Below, piece by piece: positions 5,766 through 47,430 of a DNA stretch of 64,000 nt. Within the stretch, counting starts at the first letter, position 1. Each line of letters opens with the position of its first letter. The DNA is from Echinarachnius parma (lineage: Eukaryota > Echinodermata > Echinoidea > Clypeasteroida > Echinarachniidae), in assembly GCA_037951105.1 (NCBI GenBank), contig JBAMJV010003941.1, positions 62,001 to 126,000 on the forward strand, written 5' to 3'. The notes under the pieces were generated by a model that saw only the letters and a program-made list of their open reading frames with translations, was not told the origin of the DNA and did no database searches. A program made the translations under genes and the position numbers.

Positions 5766-5846
5766 TCATAGCGATTCCACGTTGGCATACTCCTCAAATC
5801 TCTGCAGATGCTGACCAATGATGTCGTAGCACAGTCGATACAGATC
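5766..5846 (-). CDS. Exon 28: C terminus and stop
   Basis: The exon encodes residues 1352-1377, [20 protein letters not shown] then ANVESL and TGA. The [12 protein letters not shown] helix matches the YQFCYRVALEYL end of receptor PTPs. Acceptor 5847-5848. The region past the stop is repeated at lower coordinates. Confidence 0.95.
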   Translation of the reverse strand, partial: DLYRLCYDIIGQHLQRFEEYANVESL

Positions 5847-8800
5847 CTACAAAAATAAGAGAAAATAGGGATGTAAAGATGATCTTATTTTGAAGATAAA
5901 TGTACAATCATCTAACTGGAAAAAAGGTGTCTTTGAATTAATACTTGATTCGTTACTAAAATTTGCATAATAAGGTGTAATTTTCAAGATATGATTAAAA
6001 GTTTCCCTCGTTTCCTAATGATTTTTCATTGAATTCGGAAAAAAATAGAAAAGTTTGATCAGTTTCTGTAGATAAACCTGTCAGATAATCATGAATTGTG
6101 GCAGAAGGATATATCCTTTCCCCCAAGACTAAACCGAGCATGGTGGCTTAGTAGTTAGAGTGTCCGCCTCATGCACCGGAGGTCCCGGGATCAAACCCAG
6201 ACCGGGTCAAACAAACGACTTTAAAAATGGTACCTTCTGCCTTCTAGCCAGGCGCTCAGCATTTATAGAATGGAGAAGGGAAAGTTAACCAAACGAGTTA
6301 CAAGAGGACTGGTCCCCTTCTGTAGCTTTCACTACATTTAGTAGACATGTGGCCTAGGGCTAATGAATCAGAGATAGGCGCCTCCTTAAGTGCCAAAATT
6401 GTCACGGGGAGGACTTCAACTTTCCCAAGACTATGGATTAACTTACCAGGGACTGGACCATGTTTGGTCTGCAGGCTCTAAGCCTCTTGACCGCCTGGAA
6501 GATGTTGACCTTCTGGTCATGGCGTATCCTCTCCATCACTGACCACAGGGCACAGAACACTCCGCTACGACCAATGCCATTTCTAAACAAATAGATACAG
6601 ATGAATAACGATATTACTTTTTATTTCATCTAAAGGTGTTTGTAAGGGCATTTCCACAGTAACTCGCGTTACACTTAATGGTACGCTGACTACTTCACTG
6701 AGCTGTAAATCCATAATTTTATGGAACTGTAGGCTGATTTTAACAGATTTACAATGTCAACATTGTAAACTAAAAAGTAAATTTTAATTATGCACAAAAA
6801 CAAGGTAAGAGAAATGATTGACTCACATGCAGTGCACAATGATTGGCCCCTTCCTATGAGCATTCTTCATCCAGAAACAAATCAATAAGATTTGATATAG
6901 AGCCAATGATTTTTGTTCAATTTCCCCCCCCCCCTTTCCATTGAAATGCCCAAATATATAAAAACAAATAGCATTTAATCACTCAATATTCCCAACTGTC
7001 AACATTGTAAACTAAAAGTAAAATTTAATCATGTACAAAGACAAGGTTAGAGAAATAATTGACTCACATGCAGTGCACAATGATGGGGCCCTTGCTTTGG
7101 GCAGTCTTCAGTCTGTTCTCCACCACTTCCACCAGGTTCAACAAGGCCAGAAGGGAATCGGGTGTGACTTGCGATGCGCCCCATCCAAGCATCTCGTACT
7201 GATCCACGCACACCTTCTGTAAATGCCACAAGAAACAAGTAACAATGACTCACTGCAAACAAGTACATAGTCTTTGAGATGGTTAATCTGTTCTCTACTA
7301 GATATTGCTCTCCCCATAGAGTTGATTAAGTCTGTTCTCAACCACTTCAACCAGGTGCAACAAGGCCAGAATGGAATCGGGTGTGACTTGCGATGCGCCC
7401 CATCCAAGCATCTCGTACTGATCCACGCACACCTTCTGTAAATGCCACAAGAAACAAGTAACAATGACTCACTGCAAACAAGTACATAGTCTTTGAGATG
7501 GTTAATCTGTTCTCTACTAGATATTGCTCTCCCCATAGAGTTGATTAAGTCTGTTCTCAACCACTTCTACCAGGTGCAACAAGGCCAGAAGGGAATCAGG
7601 TCTGACCTGCGATGCGCCCCATCCAAGCATCTCGAACTGATCCATGCACACTTTCTGTAAATGCCACAAAAAACAAGTTACAATGACTCACTGCAAACAA
7701 GTACATAGTCTTTGAGACTTTGAGTTAATGTTGTCCCTACTAGATATTGCTCTCCCCATAGAGTTGATTAAGTCTGTTCTCAACCACTTCAACCAGGTGC
7801 AACAAGGCCAGAATGGAATCGGGTCTGACTTGCGATGCGCCCCATCCAAGCATCTCGTACTGATCCACGCACACCTAATCTGTTAATGCCACAAAAAACA
7901 AGTTACAATGACTCACAGCAAACAAGTACAAATGAATTAATTGCAAGTCTAAAAATGCGCCCTAATGCACAACTCTAATTGGCTATAATGTGCATATTTT
8001 CTGACTTGCGTTTAATAGCAACTTTGAGATTGGTCGCAACTCTTTATGCAACACCCCCCAGAGCAATTAGTAAAGTCTTTAGGAAAGTTAATCTGTTCCC
8101 TACTAGATATTGCACTCTTCATAAAGTTAATACAGTCTGTTCTCAACCACTTCCACCTTGTTAAAGCCCAAGTCCAGTTTCAGGAAAGTAGCCGAATACA
8201 TCTATATTGATCAATATTGTTGAATATGTATTGAAATAGGGCTTGTGTGGTAAAATCCAAACCTAAGCATCGTTAAATACAGAAATATCGGAAGAAATCC
8301 AATATCCGCCTGTAAAATTCATAAATCCACCGCCCGTTCAGACCTGTCCGCGCCGCTAGCGCTGGGGGAGATATCGACAAGCTAGGGACAAGCCCGTATA
8401 GCGAACAACTAGTGTAATTGCACGTGGTCGTAATACACGTAGCGTATGAGCGATTCCTCGTTGGCGATATCTATCCGGTCTAGATCAATTTATAATTTTG
8501 CAAATATATCAATTAGTAGGCGTTTTCCAGGCAAAATTTGTATCATCCCGTATTAGTAAAAACATATTCTTTCACATGATTGGTAATAAGAGCTTCCATT
8601 CATTTTTTTGAGAGGGGGGCGTTTCCAAAACTGGCCTATACCTTTAAGAAGGCCCACTGATCTCTAGATTTGCTTTTCAAACCGTTTACCACTGACTGAG
8701 TAAGGAAGGTACATGTATGTGTGCTCTTCTTCGAGTTTTATGTTATTCTAGCATTTCATATCGATGAGTTTGGGCCAATGATTCTAATTACGTCGCTGGT

Positions 8801-11800
8801 CCGTAATCAGGCCCCTGTAACCCAAACCCAAACTTAAACAACTTGGACCCCTGACACAATATACTAGCTGTAAAATTATTGTGATGTTGCCTAGATGCTA
8901 TGCTGCCTCAAACAAAAGAAGAAGAAGGCCCCCTGTGCCCAGGTTCTCAAAGGCAAGAGATTAACAGGCATCATCAATTGACCAGTTATATAGACTAGTA
9001 TGAACGTTCATCTGTATCTGTATTTTATAAGAAGGAACATTTTAAACTTTGAATCTCAATACAAATAATTACCTCCAAAGGCTGTAGATGACTGACAGAA
9101 ATGTTGAAGGTAATTATTAATTTTGTGTTGTGATCAAAAGTTTGAAATGTTACTTCTTCAGTTAAAAGACTATTTCATTGTAGTATTACATGCACTCTCT
9201 ATAGACCCCAGCCCAATAGGATGCAGTCCCAAGTGGATTAAAGGAGTAGTTCAGTTTTGGTATAGAGGTGTAAAATTTGAAAAGGCATACAATTTTAATG
9301 GCAGAATAAACTTTATTTGATCAAAATCGGTTCAGAAACGGCTAAAATATCAATAAATATATCCGATCGGAATAAAGCTGGGGCCCAGATTTATTTGATG
9401 AGTTTTACAAAAAAAAATTAAATGCCTAATTTATTTTAATAGTTGTTGATGATATCTCTATCTAATTATTATTTTAACAAAACATCACATGCATAATTTT
9501 GTATGGAAAATGGTTGAAACCAATGCTTTTTAGAGAGCGCCCTCTTGTGTTTGAATGGCCCTTTTTATATAGATTACAGGCTTTTTACTAAGTCGTTTGT
9601 AATTTTCTATACCTTTCGAGCATGGTGGAGTTATAACTATTTGTTTGTAATGTTATTGTACAGGTGTTGGTTACTAAAACCTTACCAAAACTGTACAACC
9701 CCTTTAACCTAAGAACAATATTTGACACTCACATCTCCTCCTGATGACACGTCAAACTGCCTGGTGATGTAGTGAGCCGTTTCACTCGTCGCCTTGTGAG
9801 TCACATTCAACAAACCGAGCTGACTGCTGCCCTCTCTAGGCCAGTACTCTACAAGTGTCTGAAAGTGACCAACCAAAACACAAGTTTCCAAGTTAATGTT
9901 GTAATTTCCAACAAGTCAGAATTTGAAAAAAACAAGACAAAAAACAGCAGAAATAAATTTTTAAATCCACAAAACATTCACATCTTGTCAAATTCGAATA
10001 CTAAAGAATGATATATCTGGGGCAACTATTCACAATTGGTTGGCTTAAAATAACAATGCTCTGAATTTCCTTCATATAAAGGATTTACATTAGGTAATTC
10101 TATAGCTAGCTGAATACCGCTCCTGGAGGGCTGAGGAGCGGTAGTGATTTTTGAGCACTCAAGCTTGCATCCTACATTTTATCAGGGTTGGCACTTCTTA
10201 TCTCTAGTCCCTGGGCGCTAATGTCTCAGCAGAGGATTAGAGGATTAGGATTGTTGACAGCAGTAATAAAACTGATAAGAATGTGGTCGATACGGAAACA
10301 AAAATGATAAAATTGATCACCACGATGGTGGAAGACAAGCTAATGGGACAATCACGTGAAATGCAAAAACTGATAAACCATTTGTACCAATTTCAAAATA
10401 ACCACAATTAAACCTGCTTATTTTTTGTTTGGTTAATTATTTGAAAATGTGTGATTGAAAAATCATATCTTCAAAAGTATACCTGGATATGCAAAGGGTA
10501 AGGCATCATTTAAAAACAAATCTTTGGAGGTTTCATGTTGGTACATGTCCCTTTATCTTAACAATAACAAAAAAAAGGAATTTAACCGTTTTTTTGCATA
10601 TATACACTTCGTTATAGCACTCAAGAAGAAATAACAAGTCCCTTTTTGGTACTTCTGGGGTCAAACCAAGCTTACTCAACTGTACATTGCCATATGGATG
10701 CGTGTCATAGGCAATGCATAGACATTCCATAGCTGGGAGGTATTTGTCGACGCACGAACACATGCGTTGTTTATGTTCTCTCTGTACACCGTTTGTCATA
10801 CCCTATTTTGACTATTTCAAATGTAGATGTTCCCAAGCCCCCTTCTATATTTTCCAATAGACCGCTTCTGTAATGTATGCAAATAATATGCGTATGACAT
10901 CAGACTCCCCGTTGGCAAGCTTAACAATAGTAACTAGGTCCGGCAAGCTCCTGCAAACTTAGCTTGCCGGACCTAGTTACTATTGTCATACGCATATTAT
11001 TTGCATACATTACAGAAGCGGTCTATTTGTAGACTTACTTCATCTTGAGGGTTAATGGGGTTGAGCATGACGATGATGGGGCACTTCCAGTCGTAGACCA
11101 GTCTCCATATATCAGCCACGGTGCTCGGTAGGGGGGACTGAGTAGCCACAAACACGTCTTTCTTCAGGTACGTCTAAAAAAAAATAGGGCAGGAGACAAA
11201 ATATGGCACAGAATGATGAAGAAGTGCTAAAACAGAAAATAGTCATTAGGTGATTCTATCGTTAGTTTGATTTCCACCATCGTGATAACCAACTCAGTCA
11301 CATTCTTATCAGTTTCTGACAGTGTTATCAACTACTGTCAACAATCCCAGCTGTGTTAACTGCCCCCCCCCCCCCCCCCGAGGCCCAGTGCAATCACAGA
11401 GAGAGGGGCTAGTGATAAGAAAGTGTCAACAGTGATACAAATCTACTCGATGCAGGCTTGAGACCTGAAATATCATACCGTTTGTCAGGCCCTGAGAAGC
11501 GGTTTTCTCTAAGTGATGGAGTCACGTCATGTCATCCATGCATACAGTCAGCTTGCGGTTGCAACATGTAAGAAGGGAGGGATTGGAGAGTCCCGCGAGA
11601 AGGACTGTTGTTATTCTTTCTTGGGTAGTCCTGGAAAGGACTTTTTTAATTCTGGCTCGAGCTTGTAGTTCTTAAAAAGAACTACTGTACAGCGCAGGTA
11701 TGAGTCAGAGCAAGGAGGGGCATGTGTGGTAGGAGTGGCTCGACATCTCCATGTATAAGAACTACAGCGCAGGTATGAGTTACTGTATAGCGAGGAGGGG

Positions 11801-41800: not shown

Positions 41801-44800
41801 TAATCCGAAAATGAATTTTGGTTTGTTATAATGCTATAATTTCATATAAAGAGATAAAATAAACTTAAATGTTTGATTGGTGTGGCCAAGGGAGGGAAAG
41901 GGGGAGGGGTATGCTCAATGCAGGCTGTAAATTAAATAAACAAAACACAAACTATAGTATTATAACAAACCCGATTTAATTTTCGGATTAACGAACCCTA
42001 TTTTATTTTCAGACTAATGAACCTTCGGAATAACGAACCTTCGGAATAACGAACCTTCGGAATAACGAACCTTCGGAATAACGAACCCGATTTTATTTTC
42101 GAATCAACGAACCTTCGGAATAACGAACCTTCGGAATAACGAACCTTCGGAATAACGAACCTTCGGAATAACGAACCTTCGGAATAACGAACCTTCGGAA
42201 TAACAAACCTTCGGAATAACTGAACCTTCGGAATAACGAACCTTCGGAATAACGGACTGTAACCGCTTTGACAACACCTCCCTCTTTATTCCAAATGTAC
42301 TTATCCATTGTCATGTCTTATAACTGCCTAAATAATATATTTTTGGTATCCTTGGCTTATTTATACAATGCAACTCTTCCAAATGTATCAACGCTGTTAT
42401 CCGATCCAAGAACGGGAACGAATCCCGACGGTAATGGCCACCGAGACGGATCCGAGAATTGAGAATTTCTCGGAAAATTCTCAGAAGATTTTGGCGACCC
42501 ATTTTCTCCAGTAATAATTGAAAATGTGTATGTTTGACAGTCCATTAAGTAGCGGAATTCACATCAAAAATGGGGGAATTGATATTATTTGCTTTATGAG
42601 TGTTTATTTTCAAGAAATTGAACAGGACGCGCAAAATTGCTAGTCATTTGAACAATTATTGCGGAGGGATGTTCACACAAACTCCGGCCGATACCCTTGT
42701 CGAGACATTGGATGGATATCTGTATGATCGCGTTTGTGAGCCAGCTAGTGCATTAACAAAGTGGCTCTAAATTTGTATTTTGGTGATCTACACCATTTCT
42801 AAACAATTTGCTAGTCTACTTACATGATTGCAAGGCATTTGAAAGCTGAACAGAAAAAATAGCCCAAAACAGAAAAAACTGCGCTGAATATCGGTAAATT
42901 TCCATCGCGAGAGAGGCGCCAATTTACTGACTGCGAGCTAGACTTACGTGCATACCACGCGTACGGTACCAAGTGCTACGCGAATACGGTGCAGGTATGT
43001 GTAATGAACATGATACGTATGACGTATGCTATGTAACTTCAATCTTCCCGTTTCCGCGGCGCGAGTGTTCTTTGGAAATTTCCGATATTCAGCGCAGTTT
43101 TTTCATTGTTTTGGGGCTAAATTTTGTTTCTAAATTTACAGCTCTCAAATGCCATGCAATCATGTAAGTAGACTAGCAAATTGTTTAGAAATGGTGTAGA
43201 TTACCAAAATACGAATTTAAAGCTGCTTTTTTAATGCGCTGTCTCACCAGCATATCAATCCGATGTCCCCCCTGGACTGTCGGCCGGAGTTTGTGTGAAT
43301 GTGTGGCGCGATGCTGAACAAATTTACCTTGAATTTACTTCGAAAAAATACTTTTCTTGCGAAACTTGAGTTAATTCTGGATAGTCAGTAACTATTTTTC
43401 CGTAAAGATTGGTATATTCATCCTCTAAAGCAGCAACATGTGTTATATTATTGGCATATAAAAGAATAAGATCAGCCTACAACACTTTTTTTTCTGAGCA
43501 AATTCCAATTTAAAAAAAATTCCTGGGATCCGAGACGATCCGAGATCCCGTTATAACTTTTGAATTCTAACGAGACGGTTCCGAGACAGGATTTTTTCTT
43601 TACCCAACATCATTAAAATGCATCCATGCCATGTTCTTTATACATGACTTGTATGCACCTTCTGTATACTTTGGCTGCTCTTTAAATATGCAGGTTTTAT
43701 AAATCTTAAACAGTTAAAATCCAAGTTCTGTAAGACTTACTCTGGCAGTTGTCTCCTGACCATCCTGTCTCGCAGGCTCCTCCTGTACATACCCCTGAGT
43801 ATATGTGACACGCAACTCCGGACGCACAGTGGCAAGTCTGAGTACATCCAGCCCCGAAAGTTCCATCAGAACAGGCTATCAATTAAACAAAAATCAGGTG
43901 TTAGTTCAACTTAATGGTTATCTTTTGTTATTAAAACCAAGTCGTACAATTTCAAGTCTGATTGCATACGTGCCCCGAACTCACCAGAAGAACAGGCTAT
44001 CAATTCAAACAAAAACAAAATACTTTGTGAACTTTATAGTTATGTGTACAGTTCAATTGATGTATTGATTTTAATTCATAATATGAGTGCATATCGCAGT
44101 CATACGGAAGTCATACGGAACAACCAAATAGTTCTACAATTTTCAAACTAATTGTAAAAAACCTTCACAATAAATACATGTAGCTTTAATAGCTCCACAG
44201 TCAATTTTCATGGAATAGTTAATTTGCTTTTAATACACCCCTTCCTTAAATTTTGAACAGTATTTAATTTTGTTATACAATGTACATGTATAACTTACAC
44301 CCCATTCATACTTGCGTCTAGCACTGGCCTGGAACTGGCCTGGGATAAGATGTCTACCCATTCATACTAGGCATCAACAGTGGACAACCTAACGCGCAAG
44401 TATGAATACAACAGTGTCCTGGACATGTCTTAGACATTGTCGAGGATACATGTAGCTCTGCAGGGCATGCGCACTGTGTTCATATGACGTAATTGGTAAA
44501 TGACGTAGTACATCCCTATTGTGACATAACAATGACTAAGCAAATTCTGTACGAGCAAGACGGTAATGCACATGCGCAACGTTGTGCCAGCCAGTGTTCC
44601 ATTCACACTTGAGATAACAGTGGCTTAGCCTTGTCTAGCATCTGCGTAATGCCAGGCTAGGCCGAGCCAAGTCCGAGGCTAGACAATTCCTTTCATATTT
44701 GCGCAAACAGTGGCTCAGCACTGGCTTAAGCCAGTGCTGAGCCCCGGGGTGGTCACTCTCATACAAAAGTGCTACCCACCCGTGTCACACAACCTCTGAA

Positions 44801-47430
44801 ATGGACCCTAATGGGCAAAAATGGCGTATCGCACCTTTTAAAAAATGGACCCTAATGGGCAAAAATGGCGTATCGCACCTTTTAAAAAATGGACCCTAAT
44901 GGGCAAAAATGGCGTATCGCGCCTTTTTAAAAATTTACCCTTATGGCGTATTCACTTTTTTTAAATTGACCATAATGGCGTATCGCACAATTTCTGAAAT
45001 TTACCCTAAATGGCGTATGTATCGCACTTTTCTGAATGCAGCCTAAAAGGAGTAATGCACTTAAGTTAACACCCCTTAATTGTTAAAATGGCATAATGGT
45101 TTTAAAACCTCGACTCGAGTGACGCAAAATGCTTTAAGAAAAAAAGTGTTTGAATCTAAATGACTCAACACATTACAATCATCAGGTCGTGCCATCCACC
45201 GTCCGGTCACCGGTCATGGGGCCTGGACGATGATTGTCGACAACGTCAAGGATCCATCTGGCTCAAGTGGCAGCTCGATAAAGGCATCGGGATCGGCTCA
45301 TCCTCCTCATGGACATGGTTACTTAGAAGTGCACTCATACATCGGCTCATGACCATGGCCATAGCATGACCCATGTCACTCAGAGGGTTCAACAGAGTAG
45401 ACCCACACTCGGTGATGTCAGTGTCAGTGACTCAGCTCAGTGACACAAAGAATCAATTTGAATAATCTAGGATTCTAGCTTTTCAGCCTAGAATTGCAAT
45501 ACAAGAAACAACTATAATTTATAATTATATTGTAGCTAGGAAAAGTTATCTCTCAGTCTCAGTAAATGGAAGTTTGTATCCTTCAATAATGTGTTTTATA
45601 TAGTAGTTTATATAACTGATATAATGGGTGCTCCAGAATAATTATCAGCCCTCAGGCTCAGCGGAAATTCCTGTAATCGACCGCCCAGATCGCCGGGCTA
45701 GAGTCAGTGGCACTAGGCCCCTACCACCAGTACTTACAGCTGTAATTATGAATTATGCAAACACATTCGTTGCCACCGTTTATTACTATTTTACTTACGG
45801 GCCCGTCTCCATTGTATTATATGTATTATATACAAAATGTATCAATAAATGCAGATTTTCGGTTGGTAAATGACTCCTTGTCCTTCGAAGGCTTCATCCT
45901 AGGTCGTATTTAAAGCTCTTTCATGGCTCTGACGCGTCGCAGCTTCGAATAATTATATTCAGATCATTGGAAGTTTATGCTAAAAATACCGTTTGAACTA
46001 GCGACCACTGTGATGCATGTGAATAGCGCACTGCATGTAGCGCACTTGTTACGCATATACACGCACACAACATTCATGCACACATATATTACAGCCACTC
46101 CGCAGAAATAAAAATATTCAAAAACCAGGTACTGAGCTACGGTAGCTAAAAAGGGACCCATTTTGTAGAAAAACGTTGAAACCTGTGAACCTGAAAAGGT
46201 ACCCTTTTTTAGGTTTTTGTGCAATCAGTGCTTGAAAAACACCCCTTTTTAAGGAAAACGTCGACGACGCCGTATAGCTTAAAATGATACCCTTTCGACG
46301 CTTTTTTCTGACGCGGGTGCGTAGCCAGTCATGTTGGGAGTGACCCCCCCCCCCCCCCCCCCCCCCCGGGTGCTGAGCCAGTGCTAGACTCAAGTATGAA
46401 TGGGATATTATTTAGTCAAATACAAGTTATTGATTGACTAAATACAGTCATATGATTTCAACCATTCCCTTCAAGTTTCTGAAATCCCCATAGACTTTGT
46501 ACACAACCCACCTGGTTCCCGTAGTCAAGGGGATAAGTAAGTTTCACTGAAGAGCACTTTTACATCCCATTCATACTTGTGTCTAGCACTGGCTTGGCAC
46601 TGGCTTAAGCCAGTGCTAGACACAAGTATGAATGGAATGTCTAGCCTCATCCTTGGCTCAGCCTAGCCTGGCATTATCATGAAGCTAGACAAGGCTAAGC
46701 CACGCCGCTAGCGAGCCGAGCTGCCCAGCACGGCTGCCGAAAATTTTGGTGGCCCTTTTTTGTTTTTTGGTGGCCCGACGTCCACTTTTGGTGGCCCTGG
46801 GCCACCGCTAATGAGCTAGTTGACATCTAGTTGACAGCTAGTTGACATCTATATAATATTATCATTAATCACATTTAATAGAATTTGTTAACTTTTAGGA
46901 AAGTGATTGTACAAAATATTTCAAAAAAGTTAATTAAATATCATACAATTAACAAACAGAAATGGTGCAAAGAAATGTGTCCAATTCAATACTGAAATTA
47001 GTTCAATTTGTAAAATAAAATTTAAAAAAACATTTATTGAAACTGAAAATGAAAATGAAACCAAATATTACAGGTAGTTAACGAAACAATATGTAAATAA
47101 ATGTATCTCAACTCAAGTGAAATCAGGACAAGTTGTAATACAAATTAATAATAACAAATGAAAAAGAAACGGAAGCCGAGTAATACAGGTAGTTAAATAC
47201 AGACATTTCAATTGTATTAAAAGGAAGTGTGTTAAAAGGAAGTTTGTATTAAAAAAGAAAGATTTCTTTACCTTGGGAGCAATCCAAGCCCTCAGATCCT
47301 GTATCGCAAGTGCAGCCGTATGGGTCAGGAAGGCAGAACAATAATCCTCTACATTTATCAGCATCATCATTTTTACTGCATTTATATTCACAGTTCAGGC
47401 CAAAGCGATTCCCTTTATCATCCCTGCAAA
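5766..47430 (-). CDS. Receptor-type protein tyrosine phosphatase with Tie-like ectodomain (28 exons, 5'-partial)
   Basis: This is a single-pass membrane receptor predicted to remove phosphate from tyrosine in target proteins. The 28 exons join in frame with GT-AG introns to give 1377 residues and a TGA stop (residues are numbered from the first full codon visible). The order is EGF-like modules (1-194), an Ig-like domain (195-287), three FN3 domains (288-596), a transmembrane helix (about 605-628), a juxtamembrane region (630-811), PTP D1 (about 812-1060) and PTP D2 (about 1061-1377). D1 has WPD 975-977, Cys1014 and Arg1020. D2 has Cys1305 and Arg1311 but WGA at 1268-1270 in place of WPD. The EGF motif CLPDPYGC and the order EGF-Ig-FN3x3 are those of Tie1/Tie2, whose cytoplasmic domain is a kinase; here it is a phosphatase. 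Vertebrate receptor PTP classes do not have this ectodomain. The upstream end is missing. Phosphatase identity is very secure; Tie kinship is an inference from motifs and order. Confidence 0.95.
6125..6440 (+). mobile_element. tRNA-derived SINE
   Basis: TGGTGGCTTAGTAGTTAGAG fits an A box and GGTCCCGGGATCAAACCC fits a B box, spaced as in a tRNA gene. About 240 bases of unrelated body follow, without a clear A tail. It lies in the last intron, between exons 27 and 28. Confidence 0.75.
6447..6582 (-). CDS. Exon 27: PTP D2, P-loop arginine
   Basis: The exon encodes residues 1307-1351. NGIGRSGVF completes HCINGIGRSG, keeping Arg1311 and the CX5R spacing. The C-terminal PNMVQSL continues DLY: the first Q-loop Gln is kept and the second is Leu. 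D2 is therefore predicted weak or inactive but able to bind phosphotyrosine. Confidence 0.94.
6750..6875. repeat. Partial duplicate of the exon 26 donor region
   Basis: Bases 6750-6855 match 6995-7095, including the end of exon 26 and its donor (GACTCACATGCAGTGCACAA in both). The copy diverges soon after the GGCCCC stretch and has lost the rest of the exon. Confidence 0.8.
7068..7216 (-). CDS. Exon 26: PTP D2, altered WPD loop and cysteine
   Basis: The exon encodes residues 1257-1305. The WPD position reads LGWGASQ (Trp1268, Gly1269, Ala1270), so the general-acid Asp is missing. The exon ends IIVHC with Cys1305. It is the only complete member of a tandem array of exon copies reaching 8160. 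Confidence 0.93.
7217..8160 (-). repeat. Tandem array of partial exon 26 copies
   Basis: A unit of about 219-225 bp contains the first 105 or so bases of exon 26 plus intron. Exon parts lie at 7331-7435, 7550-7654, 7773-7879 and, cut short, 8136-8160. Each of the first three keeps the [16 protein letters not shown]-type coding start or a close variant. All lack the HC motif and the donor; copy 2 reads into a stop after [12 protein letters not shown]. They are probably unused. Confidence 0.85.
7945..8062. mobile_element. Family K MITE fragment
   Basis: Contains TTCTGACTTGCGTTTAATAG and GCAACTCTTTATGCAACACC, matching one arm of the fold-back at 31563-31763. It interrupts the exon 26 array. Confidence 0.65.
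8161..8647. mobile_element. Family R MITE, TTAA-flanked
   Basis: TTAA at both ends with termini AAGCCCAAGTCCAGTTTC and AAAACTGGCCTATACCTT, a loose inverted pair. It truncates the last partial copy of exon 26, so it inserted after that duplication. Confidence 0.65.
8648..9237. other. Intron sequence, nothing recognised
   Basis: No exon with matching phase or conserved motif was seen. A short tract ending CCTCAAACAAAAGAAGAAG (8878-8930) resembles 49921-49970 and may be a retroelement tail. Confidence 0.4.
9238..9707. mobile_element. Family Q MITE, TTAA-flanked
   Basis: TTAA at both ends. Termini AAGGAGTAGTTCAGTTTTGG and CCAAAACTGTACAACCCCTT are inverted copies. A related end is seen at 22020. 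Confidence 0.75.
9733..9858 (-). CDS. Exon 25: PTP D2, central sheet
   Basis: The exon encodes residues 1215-1256, beginning [15 protein letters not shown] and ending [13 protein letters not shown]. Forty-two codons, phase 0. Acceptor 9859-9860, donor 9731-9732. Confidence 0.94.
10085..10400. repeat. Intronic repeat with an inverted partner at 11230-11480
   Basis: The segment around ACTGATAAGAATGTGGTCGA and CCACGATGGTGG is found in reverse complement near 11267-11345 (CCACCATCGTGATAACC, CACATTCTTATCAGTTTC). The two flank exon 24 as large inverted repeats. Class unknown. Confidence 0.55.
10853..11029. mobile_element. Compound hairpin element
   Basis: AATAGACCGCTTCTGTAATG at 10857 pairs with its complement ending at 11027. 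ACAATAGTAACTAGGTCCGG at 10925 pairs with 10961-10986. The right side carries both arm halves fused, and the left side has an insert between them. It ends about 8 bases from the exon 24 donor. Confidence 0.75.
11039..11173 (-). CDS. Exon 24: PTP D2, central part
   Basis: The exon encodes residues 1170-1214: [19 protein letters not shown], then [17 protein letters not shown]. Gly of TQGP is replaced by Ser and FWRM reads IWRL, as is common in D2 domains. A decayed copy of this exon lies upstream at 11843-11902. Confidence 0.94.
11690..11902 (-). repeat. Decayed and tandemly repeated copy of exon 24
   Basis: Bases 11843-11902 (CTCAGTAAGGGAGACCGAGT then CTTCTTCAGGTACACC) align to the first half of exon 24 with several changes. 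Two units of about 75 bp at 11690-11842 extend it (GTGTGGTAGGAGTGGCTCG repeated). No usable donor or full reading frame remains. Confidence 0.7.
11944..12196. mobile_element. Family D MITE, third copy
   Basis: ATGGAAAGCCATTAGTTTCT and GGCTTTCCATAATTGTTTAG match the copy at 2324-2641. The right end, TTTGTGTGAAACAC, overlaps the intron start next to exon 23. Confidence 0.65.
12200..12276 (-). CDS. Exon 23: PTP D2, recognition loop
   Basis: The exon encodes residues 1145-1169 and has [11 protein letters not shown], so the D2 recognition loop keeps its Tyr. It is 77 nt with the same phases as D1 exon 15. A family D element ends about three bases from its donor. Confidence 0.93.
12943..13403. mobile_element. 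Family C MITE, second copy
   Basis: TTAA at both ends, inverted relative to 169-610. Shared blocks include CATAGTTGATGACTTGTAAA and GGGTCCAGAATCGGCAGCG. Confidence 0.8.
13814..13913 (-). CDS. Exon 22: PTP D2, N-terminal part
   Basis: The exon encodes residues 1111-1143: TLHKLTPLP, then [12 protein letters not shown], with a split Lys. It is the D2 equivalent of the KNRF region in exon 14. Confidence 0.93.
14336..14716. mobile_element. Family A MITE
   Basis: Starts TTAAAGGGATCTAGTAACAT and ends TTTACTACATCCCTATAA, a worn inverted end. Internal CATTACTCGGTCATGGCATC recurs in other copies. Confidence 0.75.
14735..14884 (-). CDS. Exon 21: end of D1 and linker to D2
   Basis: The exon encodes residues 1061-1110: [18 protein letters not shown] is the last D1 helix, followed by a short linker and LQAEFE, the first helix of D2. 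This tight D1-D2 spacing is typical of tandem receptor PTPs. A family A element ends about 17 bases beyond its donor. Confidence 0.94.
15360..15780. other. GC-rich intronic island of unknown nature
   Basis: Within the AT-rich intron between exons 20 and 21, about 400 bases are GC- and CpG-rich (ACACGACGCTATTTCGGCCA, CCGCGTCGCCGGTTGCG). No domain, splice-bounded exon or terminal repeat was recognised. It could be an inserted element or an internal promoter. Confidence 0.45.
15910..16045 (-). CDS. Exon 20: PTP D1, P-loop arginine and Q-loop
   Basis: The exon encodes residues 1016-1060. AGVGRTGTF completes [10 protein letters not shown] with Arg1020. The exon ends IKMVQTQ and continues EQY, so both Q-loop glutamines (1058 and 1062) are present. 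Confidence 0.96.
16573..16757 (-). CDS. Exon 19: PTP D1, WPD loop and catalytic cysteine
   Basis: The exon encodes residues 954-1014. It has [18 protein letters not shown] with general acid Asp977, and ends LVHC with the catalytic Cys1014 followed by a split Ser. Both catalytic elements are intact, so D1 is predicted active. Acceptor 16758-16759, donor 16571-16572. Confidence 0.96.
17074..17199 (-). CDS. Exon 18: PTP D1, central sheet
   Basis: The exon encodes residues 912-953, starting [10 protein letters not shown], the counterpart of KCxxYWP, and ending RQMIVRK. It is 42 codons long in phase 0, the same length and phase as the matching D2 exon 25. Confidence 0.94.
17575..18124. mobile_element. 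Family S inverted-repeat element, split by a hAT MITE
   Basis: Begins CCAGAGCCCATATTCATAAA and ends GCATATGGGCTCTGG, with GCTAGCCTAA near the left and TACATGTAGCAGGC near the right. A fragment of the left end appears at about 13955-14000. Confidence 0.7.
17729..18009. mobile_element. hAT-type MITE with 8-bp duplication
   Basis: Termini CAGCGAAAAAA and TTTTTTTCGCTG are inverted repeats, and CTAGTTTA occurs directly on both sides (17721-17728 and 18010-18017). The 8-base duplication with CAG-type ends is characteristic of hAT elements. The interior repeats TTCGGGGGC and holds a long poly-T run. Confidence 0.9.
18226..18323 (-). CDS. Exon 17: PTP D1, FWRM motif
   Basis: The exon encodes residues 880-911, including [19 protein letters not shown] and NLIEAGK. 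This matches the conserved DFWRMVWEQ block of classical PTPs. Acceptor 18324-18325, donor 18224-18225. Confidence 0.94.
18899..18935 (-). CDS. Exon 16: PTP D1 microexon
   Basis: The 37-nt exon encodes residues 867-878 ([12 protein letters not shown]), with one base carried into the next exon to make Ala. The joined motif SQAP replaces the usual TQGP. Receptor PTP genes often have a microexon here. Confidence 0.92.
19109..19982. mobile_element. Fold-back element with long arms, hAT-like
   Basis: Arms of about 190 bases pair between 19258-19447 and 19636-19850 (AATCATCTTCTAAAATACAG at left, its complement at right). The outer ends carry GGTACCCG motifs. ATACACTA follows both edges (preceding AATACACTA on the left), compatible with an 8- to 9-base target duplication. 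No transposase. Confidence 0.8.
20530..20699. mobile_element. Family B MITE fragment
   Basis: GGTTCCGTAAGTGGTGGTAA through GCCTGGTGGTGCCCTTTAA matches the right part of the copies at 34198 and 57090. One end, with TTAA, is intact. Confidence 0.75.
20710..20786 (-). CDS. Exon 15: PTP D1, substrate-recognition (pTyr) loop
   Basis: The exon encodes residues 842-866: DRSRVVLEK, then [10 protein letters not shown]. Tyr859 is the pTyr-loop residue; Phe860 replaces the usual Ile of DYINA. A family B fragment ends 8 bases beyond its donor. Confidence 0.93.
21523..21883. mobile_element. Fold-back MITE with GTGACGCAC repeats
   Basis: TAATGCAGGTGTCATTTGTA at the left pairs with TACAAATGACACCTGCATTA at the right. 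The interior repeats the subterminal word TGACGCACC in both orientations. It lies between exons 14 and 15. Confidence 0.85.
21908..21995 (-). CDS. Exon 14: PTP D1, N-terminal helix
   Basis: The exon encodes residues 812-840, with [20 protein letters not shown] and then a split Tyr. This is the KNRY-loop region that starts the PTP fold. Acceptor 21996-21997, donor 21906-21907. Confidence 0.93.
22020..22160. mobile_element. Family Q MITE fragment
   Basis: TTAAAGGGATAGTTGAGTTT then CGGTATAGAGGG matches the left end of 9238-9707. The right end was not found. Confidence 0.5.
22289..22788 (-). CDS. Exon 13: juxtamembrane region with tyrosine and proline motifs
   Basis: The 500-nt exon encodes residues 646-811 and is probably disordered. 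YANA and YENV fit the pYxN pattern bound by the Grb2 SH2 domain; other tyrosines are in YEGV, YEDY and [17 protein letters not shown] could bind SH3 domains. SPSKGSN occurs twice in tandem from a 21-base duplication at about 22599-22640. The end, LEEYVQNKK, resembles the helix that precedes the PTP fold in receptor phosphatases. Binding partners are inferred from motifs only. Confidence 0.92.
23511..23554 (-). CDS. Exon 12: cytoplasmic basic stop-transfer microexon
   Basis: This 44-nt exon encodes residues 631-644 ([14 protein letters not shown]), with split codons at both ends. Acceptor 23555-23556 and donor 23509-23510 are good. Without it the transmembrane exon does not join the juxtamembrane exon in frame. 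Confidence 0.88.
23745..24630. repeat. Direct repeats flanking the family V element
   Basis: Bases 23750-23835 and 24548-24632 are similar (ATCAAACATAAACAGAAAGTG in both). A local duplication of intron sequence surrounds the element. Confidence 0.65.
23867..24490. mobile_element. Family V pogo/Tigger-like element with internal tandem repeats
   Basis: TA flanks, start CAGTCAAACCCGTCTCAGTG, end with the complement CACTGAGACGGGTGTGACTG. About three copies of a unit around CAGTGTTATGGAACCTGTC and TGGCCACTTTTC fill the left half, with one inverted copy at the right. CAGT termini with TA duplications suggest a pogo-type transposase. Confidence 0.75.
24625..25065. mobile_element. Inverted-repeat DNA element
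   Basis: Start ATATGTGACCTCACACCACA then AAACGACC; end GGTCGTTTTGTGGTGTAAGG then TCACATAT. Inverted repeats are about 28 bases, with probable TA flanks. No coding capacity. Confidence 0.8.
25155..25503. mobile_element. Family A MITE
   Basis: TTAAAGGGATCTAGTAAC at the left, GTTACTAAGTCCCTTTAA at the right. The right TTAA is shared with the next element. Confidence 0.85.
25500..25937. mobile_element. Family A MITE, abutting copy
   Basis: Starts in the TTAA shared with 25155-25503 (AAAGGGACCTAGTAACTTTC) and ends ACTGTAGATCCATTTAA. It is more diverged than its neighbours. Confidence 0.75.
26111..26497. mobile_element. Family A MITE, well preserved
   Basis: TTAAAGGGACTTAGTAACAT to AGTTACTAGATCCCTTTAA. 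Serves as the reference copy: CATTCATCACCTTTTGCACA near its right end shows the empty site of the insertion at 54610. Confidence 0.88.
26512..26680. mobile_element. Family O fold-back, partial copy
   Basis: TATCACTAATAATGGATATA and CTGCCATGTTTTTCAACG match 28495-28640. Only one arm is present. Confidence 0.6.
27080..27190 (-). repeat. Altered copy of the transmembrane exon's 3' half
   Basis: AAGCCTACCTTCTTAACAGA matches AAGCCTACCTTCTGAACAGA at the exon 11 donor, about 110 bases away. On the minus strand it reads [14 protein letters not shown] before a GT donor. It could be a decayed duplicate or, less likely, an alternative exon; the acceptor is unclear. Confidence 0.55.
27194..27296 (-). 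CDS. Exon 11: transmembrane segment
   Basis: The exon encodes residues 597-629. After a short polar stretch there is an uninterrupted hydrophobic run, about 605-628, rich in Ile and Val, followed by Arg. With the next exon it gives [10 protein letters not shown], a basic stop-transfer signal placing the C terminus in the cytoplasm. A related, altered copy of the exon's 3' half lies downstream at 27080-27150. Confidence 0.93.
27345..27600. repeat. Short intronic tandem repeat
   Basis: Three copies of a unit of about 95 bases containing TTCATTTATTTTAGATAAAA and TACAGGGTAA or a variant follow each other upstream of exon 11. Confidence 0.65.
27640..27888. mobile_element. Family A MITE, truncated
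   Basis: TTAAAGGCATCTAGTAACTT at the left; sequence matches the family up to CGATCGTACATATCTTTG and then stops. Confidence 0.75.
28148..28331. mobile_element. Family V element, short copy
   Basis: TA-flanked, CAATCCAACCCGTCTTAGTG to CAGAGGTTTGACAG. Contains TGGCCACCTGTCTATAGC as in 23867-24490 but no tandem array. Confidence 0.75.
28361..28477. mobile_element. Family A MITE, right-end fragment
   Basis: Ends GACAATGTTACTAGATCCCT. Only the last 110 bases of the family remain. Confidence 0.6.
28495..29065. mobile_element. Family O fold-back element
   Basis: TTGGGTATCACTAATAATGG at 28559 recurs inverted near 29000-29026. CACTATCAACTGTTTTGACT, GAGCGTGCACTA and AGCAGGTTATGTAACC occur in both orientations. 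Several nested palindromes give at least four alternating arm copies. Confidence 0.75.
29212..29720. mobile_element. Family E fold-back element with 50-bp array
   Basis: Outer ends CCCATTCATACTTACGTC and GACGCAAGTATGAATG are inverted. At 29432-29681 a 50-base unit (GCCACTGTTCATTCATACTT then GCGTCAAGCACTGGCTC) repeats five times. The unit contains the element's own terminal sequence. Confidence 0.85.
29736..29805 (-). CDS. Exon 10: FN3 domain 3, last strand
   Basis: The exon encodes residues 573-595: [16 protein letters not shown], the typical G-strand end of an FN3 domain, then IARTVIT. One base is left for the Gly codon completed in the transmembrane exon. A family E element ends 13-14 bases beyond its donor. 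Confidence 0.92.
29821..31562. other. AT-rich intron, nothing recognised
   Basis: No exon, terminal repeat or RNA gene was seen. Runs of ATCGAT words (30980-31150) and short open frames look like low-complexity chance. Confidence 0.5.
31563..31763. mobile_element. Family K fold-back MITE
   Basis: Left GGGGGTGTTGCATAGAGAGT pairs loosely with right AACTCTTTTTTGCAACTCCC. TTTAATCGCAAGTCAGAAAA at 31620 pairs with TTTTCTGACTTGCGATTAAA at 31681. The centre contains GAGCCAATCAGAATTGCGC. Confidence 0.8.
32292..32536 (-). CDS. Exon 9: FN3 domain 3, first part
   Basis: The exon encodes residues 492-572. It begins [10 protein letters not shown] and has [20 protein letters not shown] and [11 protein letters not shown], the complete front of an FN3 domain. 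Phase 1 in, phase 0 out. Acceptor 32537-32538, donor 32290-32291. Confidence 0.93.
32672..32848. mobile_element. Family U pogo/Tigger-like MITE
   Basis: TA on both sides, CAGTGAAACCTCGTTATAAC at the left and CTATAACGAGATTCCACTG at the right. TTATAACGAG-like words recur internally in both orientations. CAGTG ends with TA duplication are typical of pogo/Tigger elements. Confidence 0.85.
33328..33700. mobile_element. Family A MITE
   Basis: TTAAAGGGATCTAGTAACTT at the left; right end worn after GAGGATTTGGACAATGTA. Confidence 0.8.
33801..34032 (-). CDS. Exon 8: FN3 domain 2, second part
   Basis: The exon encodes residues 414-490. [12 protein letters not shown] forms the C strand and [20 protein letters not shown] is the F-strand tyrosine-corner region. 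It ends VVVRTAEE with one base left over, which gives Ile at the junction. Acceptor 34033-34034, donor 33799-33800. Confidence 0.92.
34198..34646. mobile_element. Family B MITE, complete
   Basis: TTAAAGGGGACCACCAGGCA at the left and GGTGGTGGTACCCTTTAA at the right give inverted termini with TTAA flanks, 449 bases. The interior is moderately GC-rich (GCGATTCGTTCGCTCTGCAC). Confidence 0.88.
34829..34899 (-). CDS. Exon 7: FN3 domain 2, first part
   Basis: The exon encodes residues 391-413 and ends with MQLQVSWQ, the B-strand Trp of the second FN3 domain. It starts in phase 1 and ends in phase 0, splitting the domain. Acceptor 34900-34901, donor 34827-34828. Confidence 0.9.
35683..35991 (-). CDS. 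Exon 6: fibronectin type III domain 1
   Basis: This exon encodes a whole FN3 domain, residues 288-389, in phase 1-1. It has the core pattern [11 protein letters not shown], a central [12 protein letters not shown] and the terminal [16 protein letters not shown] with its tyrosine-corner Tyr. Acceptor 35992-35993, donor 35681-35682. About 30 bp around the acceptor recur upstream at 36139-36172. Confidence 0.92.
36139..36172 (-). repeat. Duplicate of the exon 6 acceptor edge
   Basis: CTTGGTGGCTCACTAAGTAC then AGGCAGCACTGG repeats the first bases of exon 6 and its acceptor, 176 bases upstream, with two changes. It is too short to code. Confidence 0.75.
36255..36710. repeat. Tandem duplication of about 250 bp in an intron
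   Basis: GGATTGCCATGTTTGCCA at 36263 and 36513 starts two diverged copies; TTAAACTGTTATTCACAAG also occurs in both. Confidence 0.75.
36968..37246 (-). CDS. Exon 5: Ig-like domain
   Basis: One exon encodes residues 195-286. The two Ig cysteines fit [15 protein letters not shown] and [10 protein letters not shown]; the first resembles the CKASGWPLP region of the Tie membrane-proximal Ig. The Y-x-C motif of strand F is present (DYLC). The exon ends LTY plus a split Val, followed by [10 protein letters not shown], close to the VLPKPLNAPNV linker of Tie2. Confidence 0.88.
37560..37866. repeat. 76-bp tandem repeat, four copies
   Basis: Starts at 37560, 37636, 37712 and 37789, each GAAAGCTCGCGGCTACATTG and ending ACAGTACATGAGCTACCAT or GCCAT. 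Copies differ by few changes, so the expansion is recent. Confidence 0.92.
37984..38141. repeat. Duplicated block plus inverted copy of the 76-bp unit
   Basis: GAGGGAAGAGTAAATAGTCC then CGAGACG occurs at about 37984 and 38093. Between them, 38035-38092 is the reverse complement of most of one 76-bp unit. Together with 37560-37866 this can form a large hairpin. Confidence 0.85.
38757..38888 (-). CDS. Exon 4: EGF-like module leading into the Ig domain
   Basis: The exon encodes residues 151-193. It contains [18 protein letters not shown] and ends EPDCQYG. The junction to the next exon reads YGITRLTPN, resembling EGIPRMTPK at the same EGF-to-Ig border of Tie2. Phase 1-1, acceptor 38889-38890, donor 38755-38756. 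Confidence 0.9.
39110..39766. mobile_element. Inverted-repeat DNA element
   Basis: GTATTCTAACTTCGCGCG at the left and GTGCGCGAAGTTACAATAC at the right are inverted. The 657-base interior has CpG-rich patches and no convincing coding frame. Confidence 0.7.
39905..40060 (-). CDS. Exon 3: EGF-like module
   Basis: The exon encodes residues 99-149 and is in phase 1-1. Motifs include [19 protein letters not shown] and a C-terminal VFCE. Acceptor 40061-40062, donor 39903-39904. Two degenerate copies of this exon lie upstream at 40156-40258 and 40735-40815. Confidence 0.9.
40156..40258 (-). repeat. Decayed copy of exon 3 (EGF)
   Basis: GGCATTCCCTGGTAGTCGTG, TTGCCCAGACAAAGACACTT and CATGGACTAAAC align to exon 3, including its acceptor side. 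The middle is deleted and the frame is disturbed. Confidence 0.8.
40335..40728. mobile_element. Family A MITE
   Basis: TTAAAGGGATCTAGTAACTT to ACAATGTTACTATCCCTTTAA. Sits between two decayed copies of exon 3. Confidence 0.85.
40735..40815 (-). repeat. Second decayed copy of exon 3
   Basis: TCCTGTTGTGGACATTCATC and TTGCCAAGACGATGACACTT match exon 3 with many changes. Older than the copy at 40156. Confidence 0.65.
41462..42258. mobile_element. Family T fold-back with reiterated 15-bp terminal motif
   Basis: Begins TAGTCAAACCTGC and ends ACGGACTG. The left half repeats GGTTCGTTATTCCGAA and the right half repeats its complement more than ten times, separated by ATGAAATCGGGTTCG-type spacers. The arms can fold on each other over about 250 bases. 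No coding capacity. Confidence 0.85.
42393..43611. mobile_element. Family H non-autonomous element, copy 1
   Basis: Starts GCTGTTATCCGATCC and ends near TTCTTTACCCAACATC. It has an internal inverted repeat (42790-42905 with 43073-43198, CTACTTACATGATTGCAAGG at left). Copy 2 lies at 48057-49322. Confidence 0.78.
43741..43875 (-). CDS. Exon 2: EGF-like module
   Basis: The exon encodes residues 54-97 (codon 53 is split, giving Ala). It carries eight cysteines in laminin/Tie-type EGF spacing, including [16 protein letters not shown] and [10 protein letters not shown]. The junction reads CSQAC, like the CNEAC that follows the first motif in Tie2. It is a 1-1 phase exon, the usual form for a movable EGF module. 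A decayed copy of its 5' part lies just upstream at 43950-44010. Confidence 0.9.
43950..44010 (-). repeat. Decayed copy of the exon 2 start
   Basis: GAACAGGCTATCAATTCAAAC and GTGCCCCGAACTCACC match the acceptor and first codons of exon 2, about 115 bases upstream. Confidence 0.75.
44301..46403. mobile_element. Family E element, split by a hAT-like insertion
   Basis: Left CCCATTCATACTTGCGTCTA, right TAGACTCAAGTATGAATGGG. Without the insert it would be about 470 bases. Confidence 0.8.
44743..46370. mobile_element. hAT-like element with 8-bp duplication TGCTGAGC
   Basis: TGCTGAGC occurs directly before (44735-44742) and after (46371-46378). Ends CCCGGGGTGGTCACTC and GAGTGACC-C(n)-GGG are inverted. 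Near the left a 44-base unit (GGACCCTAATGGGCAAAAAT then GGCGTATCGCACC) repeats three times and then decays. A GC-rich block at 45170-45420 has no recognisable domain, so the element seems non-autonomous. Confidence 0.88.
46565..46641. mobile_element. Minimal family E palindrome
   Basis: CCCATTCATACTTGTGTCTA followed by the almost exact complement gives a 77-base hairpin with hardly any loop. It looks like the two ends of family E joined. Confidence 0.85.
46800..47271. other. AT-rich intron with short repeats
   Basis: AGCTAGTTGACATCTAGTTG microsatellite at 46812-46850, then AT-rich DNA up to the exon 1 donor. No gene seen. Confidence 0.5.
47272..47430 (-). CDS. Exon 1 (visible): Tie-like EGF module
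   Basis: The exon encodes residues 1-52 and starts and ends in phase 1. It contains GLNCEYKC, then [16 protein letters not shown] and GLDC. In Tie2 the equivalent stretch reads GRTCKERC, then [16 protein letters not shown] and GLQC (recalled, not searched). This is the strongest link to the Tie family. The acceptor AG lies at 47431-47432 and the donor GT at 47270-47271. The exon before it must end with one base of a codon; it was not found. Confidence 0.9.

Follow-up and report, generated by a model that had tools for sequence, protein, structure and literature searches.

The window, by which the whole analyzed stretch of 64,000 nucleotides is meant, carries on its minus strand a gene that runs from 47430 to 5766. 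Analysis of splice sites and reading frames gave a model of 28 exons with 27 GT-AG junctions, all of them in phase, in which 1377 codons are open before a stop at 5766. The exons are as follows:

Exon 1, 47272..47430, minus strand: EGF-a, eight cysteines, phase 1-1; first exon of the model, not the true 5' end
Exon 2, 43741..43875, minus strand: EGF-b, eight cysteines, phase 1-1
Exon 3, 39905..40060, minus strand: EGF-c, eight cysteines, phase 1-1
Exon 4, 38757..38888, minus strand: EGF-d, eight cysteines, phase 1-1
Exon 5, 36968..37246, minus strand: Ig domain with GITRLTPN, phase 1-1
Exon 6, 35683..35991, minus strand: FN3-1, phase 1-1, with the motif GDxPI...RxGxxGxG
Exon 7, 34829..34899, minus strand: FN3-2, first part
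Exon 8, 33801..34032, minus strand: FN3-2, second part
Exon 9, 32292..32536, minus strand: FN3-3, first part
Exon 10, 29736..29805, minus strand: FN3-3, second part
Exon 11, 27194..27296, minus strand: membrane helix, read by eye from the sequence
Exon 12, 23511..23554, minus strand: basic juxtamembrane segment, weakest exon
Exon 13, 22289..22788, minus strand: juxtamembrane region with PPVPKP and YENV
Exon 14, 21908..21995, minus strand: start of the D1 block (exons 14-21, PTP D1 and the D1-D2 linker)
Exon 15, 20710..20786, minus strand: D1/linker block
Exon 16, 18899..18935, minus strand: D1/linker block
Exon 17, 18226..18323, minus strand: D1/linker block
Exon 18, 17074..17199, minus strand: D1/linker block
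Exon 19, 16573..16757, minus strand: D1/linker block
Exon 20, 15910..16045, minus strand: D1/linker block
Exon 21, 14735..14884, minus strand: end of the D1/linker block
Exon 22, 13814..13913, minus strand: start of the D2 block (exons 22-28, PTP D2, tail and stop)
Exon 23, 12200..12276, minus strand: D2 block
Exon 24, 11039..11173, minus strand: D2 block
Exon 25, 9733..9858, minus strand: D2 block
Exon 26, 7068..7216, minus strand: D2, up to the P-loop
Exon 27, 6447..6582, minus strand: D2 block
Exon 28, 5766..5846, minus strand: tail EEYANVESL and stop

The encoded protein starts with four EGF modules (aa 1-193), which are followed by an Ig domain (aa 194-286) and three FN3 domains (aa 287-595). 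This ectodomain of eight modules is followed by a single membrane helix, a juxtamembrane region (aa 630-811) and the phosphatase domains D1 and D2 (aa 812-1377). A Pfam scan of the protein (E up to 1) returned fn3 in three stretches (5.9e-33) and Y_phosphatase in two (5.4e-136); neither an EGF nor an Ig family was among the matches, and no kinase family. The GC content of the coding sequence is 50.3%, versus 31-41% in the 4-kb blocks of the window. The locus has the appearance of a genuine animal gene, whose product would be a phosphatase at the cell surface akin to the PTPRK/PTPRM group of humans. An earlier note on this DNA had described exons that join in the order EGF, Ig, three FN3, membrane helix and tandem PTP. 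Both ends, the 27 junctions and the length agree with the present model, and the domain order was borne out after splicing. The motifs that it had named were also located: CLPDPYGC at 47335 (minus strand), VLPVLDEPP at 35992 and YGITRLTPN. The last is whole in the spliced model; in the genomic sequence an intron (between 38757 and 37246) divides it, and the reading frame before splicing gives GITRLTPN.

Exon 12 is the weakest part of the model. The flanking exons demand an exon leading from phase 2 to phase 1 at this point, and the best single candidate was picked on its phase, its good donor and its basic, juxtamembrane-like sequence. Chains of two exons across the same gap reached a score of 19.7 versus 9.1 for the single exon, yet consisted of intron-like sequence and were rejected. 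The 16.5 kb of the window that lie upstream of exon 1 yielded no 5' end with a signal peptide. Scans of the window for tRNAs and Rfam families gave nothing, and neither the AATAAA count (159 found versus 131 expected) nor a scan for bacterial promoters and terminators was informative.

In the phosphatase half, both the WPD motif (aa 975) and the loop of the HCSAGxGRTG type (aa 1013) of D1 are intact. D2 has a complete CX5R loop, HCINGIGRSG, at aa 1304, and LGW (within LGWGAS) at aa 1266, where WPD is expected. Because D1 has WPD and the catalytic loop and D2 has LGWGAS at the WPD position, D1 is predicted to be active and D2 to be a regulatory pseudo-domain. Compared with PDB chains that hold D1 only, D1 scored 245.0 bits with PTPRK, 244.9 with PTPRT, 240.9 with PTPRM, 225.4 with PTPRA and 212.2 with PTPRU. 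The best collinear D1-D2 chain was PTPRA (434 bits), and no R2B chain with D2 was found among the best 60 PDB matches. For several comparisons in this study the reference sequences were reconstructed and not drawn from database records, namely the cytoplasmic part of PTPRM, PTPRK D2, Tie1, LAR and MEGF10; a reconstructed PTPRK D1 matched PDB 2c7s. In scoring by domain, D1 gave 247.5 with PTPRK, 245.6 with PTPRM, 227.7 with PTPRA and 220.8 with LAR, and D2 gave 199.8 with PTPRK, 193.9 with PTPRA and 192.2 with PTPRM, a narrow lead of PTPRK over PTPRA.

The position of these domains was also assessed with AU tests on 7 sequences (6 of them from vertebrate classes) and three placements, which yield a class assignment and no full phylogeny. 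On D1+D2 the placement with PTPRK/PTPRM was kept (p 0.99), and those with PTPRA/E (0.010) and LAR/PTPRS (3e-11) were rejected. The values for D2 alone were 0.995, 0.006 and 0.015, respectively; on D1 alone the PTPRA/E placement was kept (p 0.354) and LAR/PTPRS fell to 0.009. The alignment of D2 showed HCxNGxGRSG, LGW and TLxxxTP to be common to the window gene and PTPRK/PTPRM and absent in PTPRA/E/LAR/PTPRS. As far as sequence comparison goes, the phosphatase half groups with PTPRK/PTPRM, D1 alone being undecided against the R4 class (PTPRA, PTPRE). A search of GTDB genomes for relatives of D1-D2 gave 38 pattern matches, none of which was confirmed.

The C-terminal tail, EEYANVESL, has a YAN as in the tail of PTPRA (YANF) that is absent in PTPRK/PTPRM, despite the grouping of D1+D2 with the latter. 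Partial copies of exon 26 were also observed. Three copies of its 5' part lie upstream on the minus strand (7923-7768, 7698-7545 and 7479-7326), with 92-97% identity in the aligned stretches and acceptor scores of 5.7, 8.3 and 8.3, versus 8.3 for exon 26 itself. One downstream copy of its 3' end, with a donor, was found at 6869-6820 (88%). Alternative or aberrant splicing of D2 could result from these copies.

The four EGF exons were recognized by their eight cysteines each, together with a match of Tie2 to aa 8-97 (53 bits, E 4e-13). Around FCLPDPYGC, EGF-a is identical to Tie2 at 18 of 29 positions and to the reconstructed Tie1 at 19 of 29, and the EGF2 with FCLPDPYGC that is a feature of Tie receptors is present in the window gene as EGF-a. 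With the cysteines held fixed, EGF-a and Tie2 EGF2 reached a Z of 11.2, and the next family 5.9, in a comparison of 18 EGFs. A Tie2 EGF2-3 query also put the EGF-a exon at the top of the 2199 six-frame ORF fragments of the window of at least 20 aa (E 2e-11). In the 18-EGF comparison EGF-b and EGF-d were nearest to reconstructed MEGF10 repeats and EGF-c to PDB chain 6u11, in each case above Tie. On these sequence comparisons, Tie specificity is clear only in the first EGF. Pfam is evidently blind to these modules, since a scan in two frames covering three of the four EGF exons recognized none. A profile made from the four window EGF exons and three Tie2 EGFs found all four exons again, which is a check of sensitivity only, and no EGF upstream of exon 1.

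Next to EGF-c, at 40247-40155 on the minus strand, lies part of a further EGF exon copy that has probably decayed (E 1e-4 with the EGF profile). The intron between EGF-b and EGF-c holds a minisatellite at 41486-42254, with a 16-bp unit, TTCCGAAGGTTCGTTA, in both orientations.

The EGF, Ig and FN3-1 modules are encoded by one exon each with symmetric phases 1-1, and are therefore suited to exon shuffling. The Ig domain gave a Z of 6.8 with Tie2 versus 6.2 with the reconstructed LAR Ig1. Tie specificity of this domain is not supported, LAR Ig1 scoring about equal, and a Tie2 Ig3 query of the 2199 ORF fragments did not retrieve the Ig exon significantly (E 0.35). For FN3-1 the highest Z-scores were those of PTPRM (15.4) and PTPRK (12.5), followed by Tie2 FN3 (9.7), LAR FN7 (8.9), Tie1 FN1 (7.1), LAR FN1 (6.5) and Tie2 FN1 (5.1). 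A separate comparison that included DSCAM gave 14.7 for PTPRK, 12.8 for PTPRM and 12.7 for DSCAM FN3. When a PTPRM Ig-FN1 query was used, the FN3-1 exon came first among the 2199 ORF fragments (E 3e-7). An Ig-FN1 query against the PDB placed titin, pikachurin, DSCAM and NCAM2 all above PTPRM. The Tie2 matches 5mya, 5utk and 7e72 were discarded as matches to Ig3-FN1, being out of register, with FN3-2/3 as the aligned stretches. The nearest domain to FN3-2 was LAR FN4. FN3-3 scored about equally with LAR repeats and Tie2/Tie1 FN3, and lower with PTPRM FN3; each of FN3-2 and FN3-3 matched LAR or PTPRD as well or better. AlphaFold models of single sequences had a mean pLDDT of 41.7 for the Ig exon and 49.0 for the FN3-1 exon, too poor for a fold search.

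When the ectodomain was compared with the PDB as a whole, an FN3 chain of LAR came first (58.4 bits), followed by PTPRM (54.6) and Tie2 (4k0v, 52.2). In the 4k0v match the EGFs contribute 48 bits and Ig3-FN1 only 7. The PTPRM match is one stretch from the Ig to FN3-3 (aa 204-580), and the Tie2 FN chain 5mya is collinear from the end of FN1 to FN3 (37.8 bits). The Ig and the three FN3 domains were also scored in native order versus five permutations of the FN3 domains. With Tie2 the native order scored 191 and no permutation exceeded 161; the corresponding values were 172.5 and 146 with PTPRM, and 141 and 88 with the reconstructed Tie1. With the reconstructed LAR the native order (139.5) was not the best, permutations reaching up to 153. 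The order Ig-FN3-FN3-FN3 matches Tie2 and PTPRM alike. Because native order beats the permutations for Tie2, Tie1 and PTPRM and not for LAR, the Ig-FN3 module can be assigned to Tie and R2B jointly, with no clear choice between them. The proposal of the earlier note, a Tie-type ectodomain on a phosphatase, was sustained in part: EGF-a is Tie-like (18/29, Z 11.2) and the order EGF-Ig-FN3x3 holds; a specific Tie character of the Ig-FN3 part is unsupported, with PTPRM matching in one stretch at about 54 bits and LAR leading the PDB list.

The relation between Tie and R2B themselves was examined in the Ig-FN3 region. A Tie2 Ig3-FN3 query of the PDB returned, after Tie2, PTPRD with 76.5 bits in two stretches, and PTPRM (66.8) and PTPRK (57.5) each in one stretch covering Ig and FN3-1; with a PTPRM query, the first after R2B were contactin-5 (57.5 bits) and Tie2 (55.8). 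For FN3-1 the shuffle Z of Tie2 and PTPRM was 30.0, versus 31.6 for Tie2 and the reconstructed Tie1, and identities were 34% for Tie2-PTPRM, 41% for Tie2-Tie1 and 31-32% with LAR and DSCAM FN3. A tree built from 22 FN3 domains grouped the FN3-1 domains of Tie and R2B in a clade with support 93.2/91; FN3-1 of the window gene fell outside this clade, and placement tests rejected none of its positions. The motif GDxPI...RxGxxGxG, a pattern picked after the alignments had been seen, occurs in 5 of 33 domains, namely in Tie2, Tie1, PTPRM, PTPRK and FN3-1 of the window gene. Taken together, a common ectodomain source of the kinase and phosphatase families is possible. The more specific idea that the Ig-FN3 part of Tie and R2B descends from one ancestral receptor, with the window gene as a surviving link that has a Tie-type EGF front and an R2B-like phosphatase behind, is tentative and somewhat unlikely. 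If it were true, kinase and phosphatase would be two outputs once carried by one sensor module, and the EGF array would have given way to the MAM domain later on.

The ligand-binding part of Tie receptors consists of Ig1-Ig2, which lie ahead of the EGF array, and angiopoietins bind Tie2 via Ig2. A reconstructed Tie2 Ig1-Ig2 query of the 2199 ORF fragments gave a best E of 3.2, the Tie2 Ig3 control being also weak (E 0.35). A reconstructed PTPRM MAM query gave a best E of 0.1; the 5' end of the gene lies outside the window or was missed. Pfam scans in which stops were read as X were empty for the three frames of the minus strand at 47.4-64 kb (no MAM, no Ig1-Ig2), the three frames of the plus strand at 49-64 kb, and both strands of 1-5.7 kb. 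A receptor binding a similar ligand and signaling with opposite sign, as had been suggested, is therefore unsupported, no Ig1-Ig2 having been found upstream with the Pfam scans and ORF-fragment queries, whose sensitivity is limited.

The explanation that we favor, with a probability of about 0.57, is that the gene encodes a receptor tyrosine phosphatase related to R2B, in which the part found ahead of the Ig consists of four EGFs with eight cysteines, the first of Tie type, at the place where R2B has a MAM domain. It is preferred because the AU test on D1+D2 favors PTPRK/PTPRM, the D2 signatures are shared with them and PTPRM is collinear over aa 204-580. The points against it are the three FN3 domains, versus four in R2B, the position of PTPRU below PTPRA on D1 (212.2), PTPRA as the best D1-D2 chain, the YANV tail and the LAR FN3 chain at the top of the PDB list. 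Also counting against it are the failure to find a MAM domain in a model that lacks its 5' end, the PTPRA/E placement left standing by D1 alone, the collinear Tie2 FN repeats, the rank of PTPRM below titin, pikachurin, DSCAM and NCAM2 for Ig-FN1, the DSCAM FN3 level with PTPRM on FN3-1, the position of FN3-1 outside the Tie/R2B clade and the closeness of FN3-2 to LAR FN4. The likeliest origin is that exon shuffling attached the EGF array to a receptor of Ig-FN3-PTP type. Alternatively, the gene could be a lineage-specific receptor PTP whose EGFs are of MEGF type and whose Ig and FN3 domains are ordinary. In that case CLPDPYGC would have arrived on a single shuffled exon, and the other likeness would be general to the superfamilies. 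EGF-b and EGF-d (reconstructed MEGF10) and EGF-c (6u11), none of them nearest to Tie, would fit such an origin, as would the LAR or PTPRD matches of FN3-2 and FN3-3, the closeness of DSCAM FN3 to PTPRM on FN3-1 and the unresolved FN3 tree. We consider it unlikely in view of the order-specific match to Tie2 and PTPRM, not LAR, and of an FN3-1 motif limited to Tie, R2B and the window gene (5/33, with a post hoc pattern).

More doubtful is the shuffling of a whole Tie ectodomain onto an unrelated tandem phosphatase that would bind a Tie ligand with opposite sign. For FN3-1, PTPRM/PTPRK outscore Tie FN1, the Ig shows no Tie specificity, FN3-3 is equally high with LAR repeats, and the nearest phosphatase class already carries Ig-FN3; moreover, the reconstructed Tie1 reached only 141, and searches whose sensitivity was limited brought up no Ig1-Ig2. 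In favor of this reading are the Tie-like EGF-a, the EGF-Ig-FN3x3 order as in Tie, a slightly higher score of Ig-FN1-3 with Tie2 (191) than with PTPRM (172.5), the Tie2 FN repeats collinear at 38 bits, an FN3-3 closer to Tie2/Tie1 FN3 than to PTPRM FN3, and Tie2-like linkers (GITRLTPN and the stretch after the Ig). Two neighboring genes, one for EGF-Ig-FN3 and one for the PTP, might have been wrongly joined, as the join passes through the small exon 12, chosen partly on phase, and the 5' end was not found. This is very improbable: the exons for the membrane helix, the juxtamembrane region and D1 keep the reading frame, have GT-AG junctions and contain no intervening stop, and EGF/Ig/FN3, membrane helix and PTP is the usual order of receptor PTPs. 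A decaying gene copy under loss of constraint, to which the partial exon 26 copies and the decayed EGF-like piece at 40247-40155 might be ascribed, is no more probable, given 1377 codons all open, intact catalytic motifs in D1 and 27 intact junctions.

On the preferred reading of an R2B-related phosphatase, the EGF-Ig-FN3 part would sense contact or a ligand, and the receptor would gather at cell contacts. D1 would then strip phosphate from nearby tyrosine substrates, with D2 docking or regulating. PPVPKP in the juxtamembrane region is a plausible SH3 docking site, and the YxN sites, YENV in the juxtamembrane region and YANV in the tail, plausible SH2 docking sites that may recruit SH2 adaptors. 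In PTPRA, the tail tyrosine matching YANV binds Grb2. According to PMC7959691, R2B receptors make homophilic cell-cell contacts, their D1 is active and their D2 is an inactive pseudophosphatase, and D1 of PTPRK and PTPRM dephosphorylates junction proteins such as p120-catenin. By analogy, the window protein would have the parts to act like R2B receptors.

With R2B (PTPRK, PTPRM, PTPRT, PTPRU) the window gene has in common an Ig with FN3 domains after it, in line with PTPRM, an FN3-1 scoring highest with PTPRM/PTPRK, a long juxtamembrane region, the D1 and D2 signatures and the AU-test placement. It differs in having an EGF array where R2B has MAM, which was not found within the window, in its three FN3 domains instead of four and in its YANV tail, of which PTPRK/PTPRM have none. 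The assertion that vertebrate receptor PTPs lack this ectodomain accordingly holds for the EGF array, missing in the MAM type, and fails for Ig-FN3, which that type has. Tie1 and Tie2/TEK are alike in the EGF2 resembling EGF-a, the EGF-Ig-FN3x3 order and the FN3-1 motif, and unlike in being kinases instead of a phosphatase; furthermore, the window gene has four EGFs with the Tie-like one first, and its Ig and FN3 domains do not stand out as specifically Tie. R4 provides the best D1-D2 PDB match and a YAN(V/F) C-terminal tail, but the placement with PTPRA/E is rejected on D1+D2, though not on D1 alone, and PTPRA/E have short ectodomains without EGF-Ig-FN3. The gene is therefore filed neither under R2B, having three FN3 domains, not four, and no MAM found, nor under Tie, since a kinase is absent.

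Byrum et al. reportedly described sea urchin receptor PTPs without a vertebrate counterpart in 2006. PMC5336234 cites that study for two divergent ones, and PMC12113024 reports a Tie orthologue of the sea urchin, SpTie1/2, in the coelomocytes and the axial organ. Since SpTie1/2 is reported from the sea urchin, a Tie orthologue and the window receptor could meet in one animal, if the window is from an echinoderm. Among the matches listed from the open-licence literature, no title or abstract opening described a receptor PTP that combines EGF-Ig-FN3 with an EGF of Tie type, which is a weak absence.

To our knowledge, it is not settled where the Tie ectodomain came from. With a phosphatase that has a Tie-type EGF on an Ig-FN3 scaffold, this origin becomes testable through invertebrate Tie and R2B-like genes. 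The gene would also be a natural example of a sensor common to a kinase and a phosphatase, relevant to the evolution of opposing tyrosine signals. If an ordinary receptor phosphatase has just acquired a single shuffled EGF exon, the gene adds modestly to the variety of receptor PTPs.

Additionally, the window contains a long inverted repeat (57551-58233 and 61219-61902) with arms 95% complementary, about 3 kb apart and with 152-bp tandem units inside, which looks like a mobile element of the fold-back type.
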